In this document: positions 395 to 63,252 of the stretch, piece after piece
How positions within the stretch are numbered: position 1 is the first letter of the stretch
Layout of the letters: each line of letters starts with the position of its first letter
Assembly: GCA_034096865.1 (NCBI GenBank)
Contig: JAWQFJ010002861.1
Location: 137,193 to 201,192 of the forward strand
Direction: 5' to 3'
DNA length: 64,000 nt
Source: Theodoxus fluviatilis
Lineage: Eukaryota > Mollusca > Gastropoda > Cycloneritida > Neritidae
The notes under the pieces: model-generated
Seen by the model: the letters and a program-made list of their open reading frames with translations, nothing else
Databases searched by the model: none
What the model was told of the DNA's origin: nothing
Program-made: the position numbers and the translations under genes

Positions 395-28275
<27,881 letters not shown>

Positions 28276-28301: not shown

Positions 28302-28566
28302 CTGAAAATGAATACATAAGAGAAAACACTTCAGAACATGGCACTTTACAGGACTCTGCAAAAGTCAACGTGTCATTTGTTTTATAATGTTGTACACTAT
28401 TTCACAAATGATCTAATAATGAAAATGAAAGAATTATGCACACATCCTTCTCAATGCATTTATAGCACACACAGACTGCTATCCTAGCAAACAACACGTC
28501 TGAAAAAGAAAAAAAAAAGGGGGGGGGCAACTATTTTAAAAATTATATTTTTTCCTACACATATTG
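28302..28566. other. intron, poly-A/poly-G tract
   Basis: EIF4ENIF1 5' intron sequence with a run of A then G at about 28508-28528. Nothing else was seen. Confidence 0.5.
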
Positions 28567-29281
28567 TAGTCCTTCAGCTGGCCTACACCCCCACTGACCC
28601 CCCCTGGGGAATTTATGAGACTATGTTTTTAGGTTAGCCTGATATACCCTCTTATGATTTCTGGATGTTTGGTTTTTGTAAACTGGTGGGTGTGGGAACC
28701 AGACCACTCGAAAGGTCTCATTTTTTCTTCTTTCGGCCCTATATTTGCTCTCGGACAGTATGGTTCATCCGACAGCTGCTGTTTTTTTTCTTATCAACAT
28801 ATTTTAAATCAGTTGACAGTTTCTGAAAGACAATTGATTGTAGAATGTTTTGATATGTGTTTTTTGGTGATATCTTGGTTATTAAGGGAATGACATGAAT
28901 ACGAAATGAGGCATTTTTGAAAATCAATTTTTCATCTGTGAGTCTTATGTTTTGACATATTGAATCTAAAACAGTTTATTTTTGCACATTTGAAATAAAT
29001 TGACTTTATAAGGCAAAGTAAGTTTTATCTTTTGATACCAGTTTGGTTGACCTTTGCTTCAAGGTCAAGGTCACACAAGTCATGAGTCGTATGAATCATG
29101 TGCATACTTTGATTAGAGTGTGACAAAATGTTTTGAATGTTTGACCTTCAACTTCAAAGTCAATTATTGTTTGACCTTGACCTTCAAGGTCATTGATAGG
29201 TCCAGTTTGTATGGAGGTCAAGGTCACAGTGGACAAATAACAATAATCTGGTTGCTTTTTTGGTGTGTTTTGTGGCATTGA

Positions 29282-30523
29282 TACATACTTCACGATTGCC
29301 AGGATTATCAACATTTTCAGACTGTTGAAAGTCTCTTTGAACAACTGCCCAAAGCAGCACGGGTAGATTTTGTGACTGACTCTTACTACCCTTTCTCTGT
29401 AAAAGGACTAGAAAGAGCAAGAAGGGGATCTGGAAGTGTGCACTTGATCAAAGGAGCTTCCACCAAGGTTCCAAGAAACTGGAAACAATTTCTGAGCAGT
29501 GATGAAAACAAGCAAAATTTCACAAAGTTTTTGCTTGGTGAGTGGAAGCTGAACAAGTTCGCCGCAAAACTCAAAGGGAGGCAGATATTGTTCGTGTGTT
29601 CAGATCACTGTGTGTGTCTCTCAAGTGCTGATGGTCTCACAACACTATCTGAAAGTGTTGACGAGCTCTGCTCTTCACAGGAGGAAGCCGACACTAAAAT
29701 CATCCTACACTGCCTGCATGCCTCAAAGGTTTCATCCAAAGAAACAACCATTACGGTGAAGTCCCCAGACACGGATGTCTTCATTCTCCTGCTGTTCTTT
29801 GCCAAGCGTGTCAGGAATGACATCTTCTTTGACACTGGAACAGGCAATAATCGAAGGCTACTTGACATCAAAGAAATCGCCAAGAAAGCTGGTGCAGAGA
29901 TCTGCGCTATCCTGCCAGCAGTCCATGCCTTTAGCGGATGCGACACAACCAGCGCGTTTGTACGCAAGGGCAAAATCAGCCATCTGAAGATCATAAAGCA
30001 ACATCCCGAGTTCCACAGAGCTTTTGCTGAGCTTGGTGTCATCGGAGATCTCAACAGCACAGTGCTTGCAGAGCTGGAGCGCTTCACTTGTCAGCTGTAT
30101 GGTCTTCCGTCAGCTGACATCAACAAAGTCAGGTACCAGAAGTTTGTCGAGCGATTCTCAACAAAAGAAGGACAGCTTCTCTCATCGTATGATGGTGTGG
30201 ACATGAGTCTGCTCCCTCCCTGCAAGGACTCGCTCCAGATGCACGTTGAAAGAGCTCACTACCAGACAATGATCTGGAGACAGGCAGACAACCCTTTGCC
30301 AAAACTTCCATTGCCAGAAAATCACGGTTGGGAGAAGTCTGATGGAAAACTGCAGATCAAATGGACCAAGGGAAACCTCATGCCAGAGGAACTCTTAGAT
30401 GTCATGCTTGAGACACCCCTTGAGACACTTCTCACTGCAGAACAAGAAACCTCCGAGAATGAGTGTCCAGACACAGACTTTGGCGACCTTGTCTTTATGG
30501 ATGAGGCTAACAATGACAACTAA
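29282..30523 (+). CDS. uncharacterised TE-type protein with PIN/FEN1-like acidic motifs
   Basis: The frame is open from 29282 (stop at 29279) to 30523; there is no ATG near its start, and GTG at 29372 is only a convenient anchor. Numbered from there: VTDSYYPFSVKGLERARRGS; STKVPRNWKQFL; SSQEEADTKIILH (102-113); SPDTDVFILLLFF (131-143); LPAVHAFSGCDTTSAF (181-196) followed by KGKISHLK; then an LP.C.D.L..H...A.YQ..IW block and ENHGWE. The spacing EEAD - SxDxD - GxDxxxxFxxKGK resembles the metal-binding acidic motifs of FEN1/XPG and PIN nucleases (EAEA, SxDxD, GCDY...GIG). This protein type recurs in many invertebrate predicted proteomes, by my recollection. The N-terminus appears cut by the inverted arm. 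The frame is intact over 400 codons, so it is fairly young or selected. Confidence 0.7.
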   Translation, partial: YILHDCQDYQHFQTVESLFEQLPKAARVDFVTDSYYPFSVKGLERARRGSGSVHLIKGASTKVPRNWKQFLSSDENKQNFTKFLLGEWKLNKFAAKLKGRQILFVCSDHCVCLSSADGLTTLSESVDELCSSQEEADTKIILHCLHASKVSSKETTITVKSPDTDVFILLLFFAKRVRNDIFFDTGTGNNRRLLDIKEIAKKAGAEICAILPAVHAFSGCDTTSAFVRKGKISHLKIIKQHPEFHRAFAELGVIGDLNSTVLAELERFTCQLYGLPSADINKVRYQKFVERFSTKEGQLLSSYDGVDMSLLPPCKDSLQMHVERAHYQTMIWRQADNPLPKLPLPENHGWEKSDGKLQIKWTKGNLMPEELLDVMLETPLETLLTAEQETSENECPDTDFGDLVFMDEANNDN

Positions 30524-30632
30524 ATGAGACTTACAACTTTTGCTGTGTAGTAATGAGAACAATTGCTACAGCTTATTTATCCTGCTAAGACTTATTCAGC
30601 AATTTTGGCACTGCTTAAGTGCAGTTGTTGTT

Positions 30633-30866
30633 GGTTATGTTTGACTTTAATTTGACTGATGTACTCTTAATTCTGTAACTGTTAATGATAATCTTTGTAT
30701 GCTGGAGAATGGTTATGTTTGACTTGAATTTGACTGATGTACTCTTAATTCTGTAACTGTTAATGATAATCTTTGTATGCTGGAGAATGGTTATGTTTGA
30801 CTTTAATTTGACTGATGTACTCTTAATTCTGTAACTGTTAATGATAATCTTTGTATGCTGGAGAAA
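30633..30866 (+). repeat. three 78-bp tandem repeats
   Basis: Units start at 30633, 30711 and 30789 with GGTTATGTTTGACTT and are nearly identical. They lie 3' of the PIN/FEN1-like ORF. Confidence 0.93.
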
Positions 30867-31141
30867 ACCTGAGTAATTTCACAGACAATTGGCAACTAGT
30901 GTACTACATAGAGTTTAAATGTGTTTGTATATAAGATTATTCTTGCAACATTTTTTACTATTTGCAGCTGTTTTAGTTTGAAATTTTCACGTTTTAGTTT
31001 GTAATTTTCACGTTTTAGTTCATAAAGTTCCTATAGTTGTTTAAGAATTCAAGGAGATCCTTGATTTGATGTTGAACTTGGATGGGTCAATGATTATGAC
31101 ACAAGTTACAATAAAACAAAGACATATTCTAGGTTGCGTTT

Positions 31142-31144
<3 letters not shown>

Positions 31145-31202
<58 letters not shown>
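31145..31202 (+). repeat. (CT)n microsatellite
   Basis: About 29 CT units between the ORF and the right arm of the foldback element. Confidence 0.97.
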
Positions 31203-31206
<4 letters not shown>

Positions 31207-32072
31207 TGGTTTCAGCAAACAATGTTGATGACTCAACAGTCTGAAAATGTTGATAATCCTGGCAATCGTGAAGTATGTATCAATGCCACAAAACACACCA
31301 AAAAAGCAACCAGATTATTGTTATTTGTCCACTGTGACCTTGACCTCCATACAAACTGGACCTATCAATGACCTTGAAGGTCAAGGTCAAACAATAATTG
31401 ACTTTGAAGTTGAAGGTCAAACATTCAAAACATTTTGTCACACTCTAATCAAAGTATGCACATGATTCATACGACTCATGACTTGTGTGACCTTGACCTT
31501 GAAGCAAAGGTCAACCAAACTGGTATCAAAAGATAAAACTTACTTTGCCTTATAAAGTCAATTTATTTCAAATGTGCAAAAATAAACTGTTTTAGATTCA
31601 ATATGTCAAAACATAAGACTCACAGATGAAAAATTGATTTTCAAAAATGCCTCATTTCGTATTCATGTCATTCCCTTATTAACCAAGATATCACCAATAA
31701 ACACATATCAAAACATTCTACAATCAATTGTCTTTCAGAAACTGTCAACTGATTTAAAATACGTTGATAAGAAAAAAAACCAGCAGCTGTCGGATGAACC
31801 ATACTGTCCGAGAGCAAATATAGGGCCGAAAGAAGGAAAAATGAGACCTTTCGAGTGGTCTGGTTCCCACACCCACCAGTTTACAAAAACCAAACATCCA
31901 GAAATCATAAGAGGGTATGTCAGGCTACCCTAAAAACATAGTCTCATAAATTCCCCAGGGGGAGTCAGTGGGGGTATAGGCCAGCTGAAGGACTATTGGT
32001 CTTTCACAAGAAACTATAACTTATAGTATAAGCATAACCATATTCTGAAGAAACTATGCCTGCAACATATAA

Positions 32073-32933
32073 AACAAGAAGGGCAAAGCCCATACGACTC
32101 ACATGCTTGACCTTGACCTTTATATGACCTTGACCTTCAGGTGACCTTCAAGGTCAAGGTCAAACAACTAAACCTACCAATGACATCATACACAAAGAAA
32201 TGCTTTACACATTTTTCCTACCAAAATACATGTGACCTTGACCCAAGGTCAAGGTCATCCAAGGTCATGCAACACAAAGCTGTTAATTCAAGACATAGGA
32301 AGCACAATGGTGCTTATTGGCACTTTCTACCATGAGATATAGTCACTTTTAGTGGTTCATACCCCATTTTGGTCACATTTCATAAGGGTCAAAGTGACCT
32401 TGACCTTGATGATATGTGACCAAATGTGTCTCATGATGAAAGTATAACATGTGCCCCACATAATTATTAAGTTTGAAACAGTTATCTTCCATAGTTCAGG
32501 GTCAAGGTCACTTCAAAATATGTATACAATCCAACTTTGAAGAGCTCCTGTGACCTTGACCTTGAAGCAAGGTCAACCAAACTGGTATCAAAAGATAGGG
32601 CTTGCTTTGACCTATATACCACTTGTAGCTAAGGTCGCCATTCTCAATAACGTGGGAGAAAATTGGGAAAATGTGAAAAATGACTGTTTTTGAGACCACA
32701 TTTATGGCTCCTGTGACCTTGACCTTGAAGCAAGGTCAAGTCACTATGTATGTTTTTTGAGGCCTTGTCATCATACACCATCATGCCACATTTGGTGTTG
32801 ATAGACTTAATAGTCTCCGAGAAAAATCCAACGTTTAAGTTTTTTTACGGACGGACGCCCGCCCGCCCGGACGGACGCCCGGACGGACGACACGGCTCAG
32901 TACATAGACTCACTTTTGCTTCGCATGTGAGTC
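32073..32933 (+). mobile_element. TGACCTTGACC repeat, copy 5
   Basis: Full-length copy very close to copy 4 (21108-21973), from AACAAGAAGGGCAAAGCCC to GCATGTGAGTC. Confidence 0.9.

Positions 32934-39482: not shown

Positions 39483-53003
<13,521 letters not shown>

Positions 53004-54705: not shown

Positions 54706-63252
<8,547 letters not shown>

Follow-up and report, generated by a model that had tools for sequence, protein, structure and literature searches.

A long-armed element of the snail Theodoxus fluviatilis as a probable non-autonomous AcademX-type derivative with two right ends

We analyzed 64,000 nucleotides of the gastropod Theodoxus fluviatilis (contig JAWQFJ010002861.1, positions 137,193 to 201,192 of the forward strand; hereafter the window), in which positions 28567-31995 form a unit with two long inverted arms around an open frame. 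This element is one of many recent copies. It is very probably a non-autonomous derivative of a cut-and-paste element of the AcademX type, in which the left end and all that followed it, as far as the middle of the nuclease domain, gave way to an inverted copy of the right end. An earlier note, made from the sequence alone, had suggested, as its best candidate for an undescribed system, that a mobile element may carry or use a structure-specific nuclease in place of a DDE transposase. The element is not a new kind of system, though it is an instructive one. Its features are as follows:

28564-28566 (+), left target-site duplication TTG, read from the sequence
28567-29328 (+), left arm, interpreted as the right end copied in inverted orientation in place of the original left end (from the identity of the arms and the different left end in other copies)
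28567-28692 (+), outer ~126 bp of the left arm, likely the ancestral terminal inverted repeat (~80% shared with the other left end, ~97% in the outermost 58 bp)
29318-29332 (+), junction of arm and coding part (arm identity stops at 29328, family similarity starts at 29318-29324)
29324-30523 (+), C-terminal ~400 codons of a DDE-FEN1 transposase, a FEN1/XRN-like nuclease without its first Asp
30203-30205 (+), first in-frame ATG, downstream of all nuclease motifs
30632-30865 (+), 78-bp tandem repeat in three copies, in the 3' non-coding part
31110-31115 (+), AATAAA, a possible polyadenylation signal, read from the sequence
31144-31202 (+), (TC)n microsatellite
31233-31995 (+), right arm, read as the original right end of the element (from arm identity and a lone copy on contig C6564)
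31996-31998 (+), right target-site duplication TTG

The two arms are near-identical reverse complements, as had been noticed before: 754 of 763 positions agree, with one gap, and the mismatches are confined to the outer ~316 bp. An Rfam scan gave no match at gathering scores. We searched the assembly (965 Mb, 19,668 contigs) with 28567-31995 and scored 40 of 1,164 candidates, so that the counts are lower bounds. At least eight matches, including the window, are longer than 3.3 kb at 98-99% identity, and they extend to at least seven other contigs. Since the unit is found again elsewhere in the genome with the same ends, the inverted-arm arrangement is not due to chance. Twenty places were retrieved for reading the ends. 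All eight copies that could be read at both ends start with TAGTCCTTCAGCTGG and close with its complement, and seven of them, including that of the window, are flanked by target-site duplications of 3 bp (TTG, TGT, ATA, TTT, GTG and TTA) or, in one case, 4 bp (TAAC). The eighth, L018, has no duplication, and neither has a ninth copy, on C6564, which carries a variant right end. Variant right ends were seen at three places (L025, L026 and L027, on C6564, C717 and C5416), where the outermost ~25 bp are unlike the main family and the GGACTA terminus is kept. These copies and duplications bear out the claim that the unit is a mobile element.

The window frame is open from 29282 to the stop codon at 30521-30523 (413 codons plus stop). 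Its first codons lie within the left arm, as described earlier. The similarity to the protein family begins only at 29318-29324, depending on the relative, which is the inner border of the arm, and the codons further inside are therefore accidental. As an alternative, we considered that the border (cag|act) might act as a splice acceptor. The first ATG in this frame comes only at 30203, so that we have a stop-to-stop stretch and not a complete gene. Its translation is predicted to adopt a FEN1/XRN, FEN1/PIN-like fold, and EEAD, SPDTDV and GCDTTSAF...KGK are all present in the motif order of the FEN1/XPG/EXO1/XRN 5' nucleases. To this extent the PIN/FEN1-like reading of the earlier note stands; the metal site that it proposed is incomplete. 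D20, E122, D124, D150, D152 and D208 are kept, while the first catalytic Asp, that of the DGN motif, is missing. This residue is found in all 45 alignment rows that have a letter at the position (25 rows, that of the window among them, have none) and in the full-length relatives P0209, P0251 and L052. The part that corresponds to the first ~62 residues of FEN1, and with it this Asp, is missing from the window copy, which does not have the complete acidic active site of the FEN1/XPG family. Overall, the frame corresponds only to residues ~1159-1556 of the 1,560 of P0209 and encodes no whole transposase, the Cys/His motifs and the DDE domain being absent as well. The window copy is thus a non-autonomous deletion derivative. 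No family in Pfam and no significant hit in a sequence search of the PDB were found for it.

The full-length relatives are proteins of ~1,550 residues that join N-terminal Cys/His motifs, a P-element-like DDE domain and a FEN1-like domain in a single chain; in P0130 the DDE part resembles the P-element transposase. This fusion speaks against a nuclease in place of a DDE transposase. The AcademX nuclease is XPG-like, and its N-terminal zinc finger is of the Cys8 type; candidate motifs in L052 are two C-C...H-C pairs, with similar ones in P0209 and P0251. Relatives with a named host come from molluscs (snails and pearl oyster), a sea spider, hagfish, fish, corals and anemones. Two loci and a protein (L001, L002 and P0219) are filed under bacteria, namely a Planctomycetota metagenome-assembled genome (MAG), a Bathymodiolus symbiont and a Thiodiazotropha MAG; they are probably host or other eukaryotic contamination. 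Among the pattern matches, two of 67 in contigs of prokaryote genomes are relatives, which look like eukaryotic contamination and have no long inverted arms, and none of 25 in viral contigs is a relative. Pfam reported DUF6589 in three of nine long relatives, always below the gathering score (best 24.6 bits versus 27), and precomputed annotation places it (PF20231) in several further ones. NCBIfam had no family for three proteins, and no mention of DUF6589 was found in the literature searched.

A search of the assembly with P0209, in which the best 30 of 280 candidates were scored, returned 15 matches of the window family, including the window itself, and 15 others at 29-33% identity. None of the former extends before residue 1159 (1158 for two copies), and two of the latter cover residues 389-1501, in frames of 1,552-1,553 codons. 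The T. fluviatilis genome therefore hosts a second family, with the full-length L052 (on C7290) as a 6.4-kb element whose 1,552-codon frame has the motifs of all three parts. A motif search gave no frame in L051-L056, and the longest frame was used for L052, L055 and L056 instead. The terminal-repeat core of L052 measures 129-132 bp at 96-97% identity, between 3-bp duplications (AAT). Among six places retrieved for this family, all four copies with both ends have such duplications (AAT, TTA, TTT and CAG, by visual inspection); L051 and L054 break off in N. The termini are TAG...CTA, as in the window family.

Excerpts of PMC10045372 give target-site duplications of 3 or 4 bp for AcademX and of 9 or 10 bp for AcademH, a difference seemingly tied to the encoded nuclease and helicase. 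The window family shares with AcademX, as these excerpts describe it, both the 3-4 bp duplications and an element-encoded nuclease, and we provisionally file it there because of this agreement. The 6.4 kb of L052 are close to the mean length of bivalve Academ elements (5,565 bp according to excerpts of PMC10294476). The full-length relatives have a DDE transposase domain, as expected of AcademX; the window copy differs from this lineage in that its DDE part and its Cys/His motifs are lost and that both of its ends are right ends. By these features, as set against published descriptions, the family matches AcademX, which speaks against an undescribed system. The closest structural parallel to the long arms is Galileo, a Foldback-like member of the P superfamily, whose longest arms are found on non-autonomous copies according to excerpts of PMC3573991; a P-element-like DDE part is likewise present in P0130. 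Galileo differs in that its long repeats are internally repetitive and its flanking sequences measure 7 bp, as compared to the 3-4 bp duplications and the FEN1-like domain found here. A narrow literature search for such changes of the ends gave no paper with Academ as the subject of its title. The domain also departs from the FEN1/XPG/EXO1/XRN nucleases in being part of a transposase.

To account for the arms, we compared the ends of the copies. On five contigs a different left end takes the place of the long left arm, over 763-769 bp on C5441 (the query itself), C18960 and C6564, over 307 bp on C9890 and over 195 bp on C1845. It is similar to the right end over ~126 bp only, at ~80% identity (97% in the outermost 58 bp). 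On C18960 it is followed by a transposase start (P0209 residues 7-82, 42% identity, E 1e-11), beyond which no further coding match was found on that contig. On C6564 a single copy of the right arm, without its outermost 25 bp, lies ~6.1 kb from a left end of the original type, though this pair has no duplication. Because five contigs carry the other left end and one of them leads into the transposase N-terminus, the family most likely had another left end originally, in whose place the window copy acquired the right 763 bp in inverted orientation. Arms of 0.76 kb are then probably not ancestral repeats, and the different left end would be the ancestral one. It is quite unlikely that the arms are instead the ancestral terminal inverted repeats and the window copy a plain internal deletion. 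Their identity of 98.8% and the 3-bp duplication that bounds them are those of normal terminal repeats, and no intact full-length copy of the window family was found to decide the matter; however, the five left ends, the N-terminus on C18960 and the repeat core of only ~130 bp in the full-length element of the second family all argue against it.

Long arms are found also in the second family. In L055 and L056 the inverted arms measure 900 and 906 bp, and only the C-terminal part of the protein remains (frames of 923 and 862 codons, from P0209 residue 656 or 684 onward), whereas their full-length relative has a short repeat. We rejected an independent origin of the two, since they have a common inner arm border (position 7608 of L052), and count them as one event. 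In both, the types of the outermost ~37-46 bp are exchanged, such that the left side carries the right type and the right side the left type. As 763-bp and ~900-bp arms occur in two distantly related families of one genome, the copying of one end, inverted, over the other might be a regular by-product of DDE-FEN1 transposition, a tentative idea that we consider doubtful. The nuclease may then leave one broken end free to invade the wrong terminal repeat.

The derivation of the unit from an AcademX-type parent suggests the following mechanism. The parent would have short terminal inverted repeats of ~126 bp with termini TAG...CTA and encode one large protein. In this protein, Cys/His motifs at the N-terminus would precede a DDE (RNase H-like) transposase for cutting and joining the ends and, at the C-terminus, a FEN1/XPG-like nuclease with a probable role in processing branched or flap intermediates. 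Once the element is excised, donor-site repair would start correctly from the right; on the left, the broken end would invade the wrong terminal repeat, that of the right side, because the two repeats are similar. It would then copy 763 bp inward and be end-joined within the coding region. In this way the element would lose its left end and the sequence up to the middle of the nuclease domain and gain the terminal 763 bp of the right end in inverted form, and the resulting derivative with two right ends may spread on transposase supplied in trans.

We also considered selection on the truncated frame. In a first count, 11 of 24 copy-wise substitutions were synonymous (P = 0.008 or 0.047, depending on the assumed neutral fraction), a signal that was not upheld once each variant was counted once. 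Unique variants are 7 synonymous and 11 non-synonymous (P = 0.22 against neutrality), and we therefore make no claim of selection. Variable sites number 18 out of 1,192 in the frame, compared to 20 out of 762, 14 out of 621 and 30 out of 763 elsewhere in the unit (P = 0.01 against all three; P = 0.09 against the left arm and the 3' part). These data bear on the idea of an undescribed mobile element moved by its nuclease, which has a very slim chance of being correct: the frame is the only long coding stretch of the unit, with a predicted nuclease fold, and is open in 11 of 12 aligned copies, but the truncated protein is without demonstrated selection, it has neither the first catalytic Asp nor an ATG upstream of the motifs, and its relatives fuse the nuclease domain to a DDE transposase. 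Equally improbable is an unrelated long-arm element that captured a PIN/FEN gene fragment. In its favour, the arms share AAGGTCA-rich dispersed repeats with other parts of the window; against it, the transposase N-terminus is reached from a left end with the same terminus, and TAG...CTA ends and 3-bp duplications are found in full-length DDE-FEN1 elements of the second family.

The rest of the window contains fragments that read as host exons and retroelements. A dispersed repeat of ~135 bp with AAGGTCA half-sites lies at 32066-32200; it is dispersed over several sites of the window as well as many contigs, with similar motifs within the arms. Two near-identical stretches with reverse-transcriptase-like and GIY-YIG-like frames, separated by a stretch with a short run of N, occupy 22298-25203 and are possibly an assembly duplication of a Penelope-like element. 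A short reverse-transcriptase-like frame lies at 27156-27413, and a 359-codon frame at 59686-60765 (-) presumably represents the RNase H end of a long interspersed nuclear element (LINE) retrotransposon. We take 49537-49935 and 54706-55113 (-) to be a DRG-type GTPase exon and a tektin-like exon of ordinary animal genes. Long G/A- or C/T-rich simple-repeat tracts are found at 16231-16709, 18587-19361 and 51058-51866, and the 4-kb bins around the last two show strong GC skew.

These results remove a candidate 'nuclease-only' transposon and place it in a known superfamily. Predicted structures lend support to a transposase type that fuses a P-element-like DDE domain with a FEN1/EXO1-like nuclease; to our knowledge, the role of the nuclease in transposition by such enzymes has had no test. 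If end replacement is indeed regular, it would repeatedly yield fast-spreading derivatives with long arms. Long-arm derivatives from end copying in two families would offer a concrete repair product with which to study the exit of these elements from the donor site and the filling of that site.
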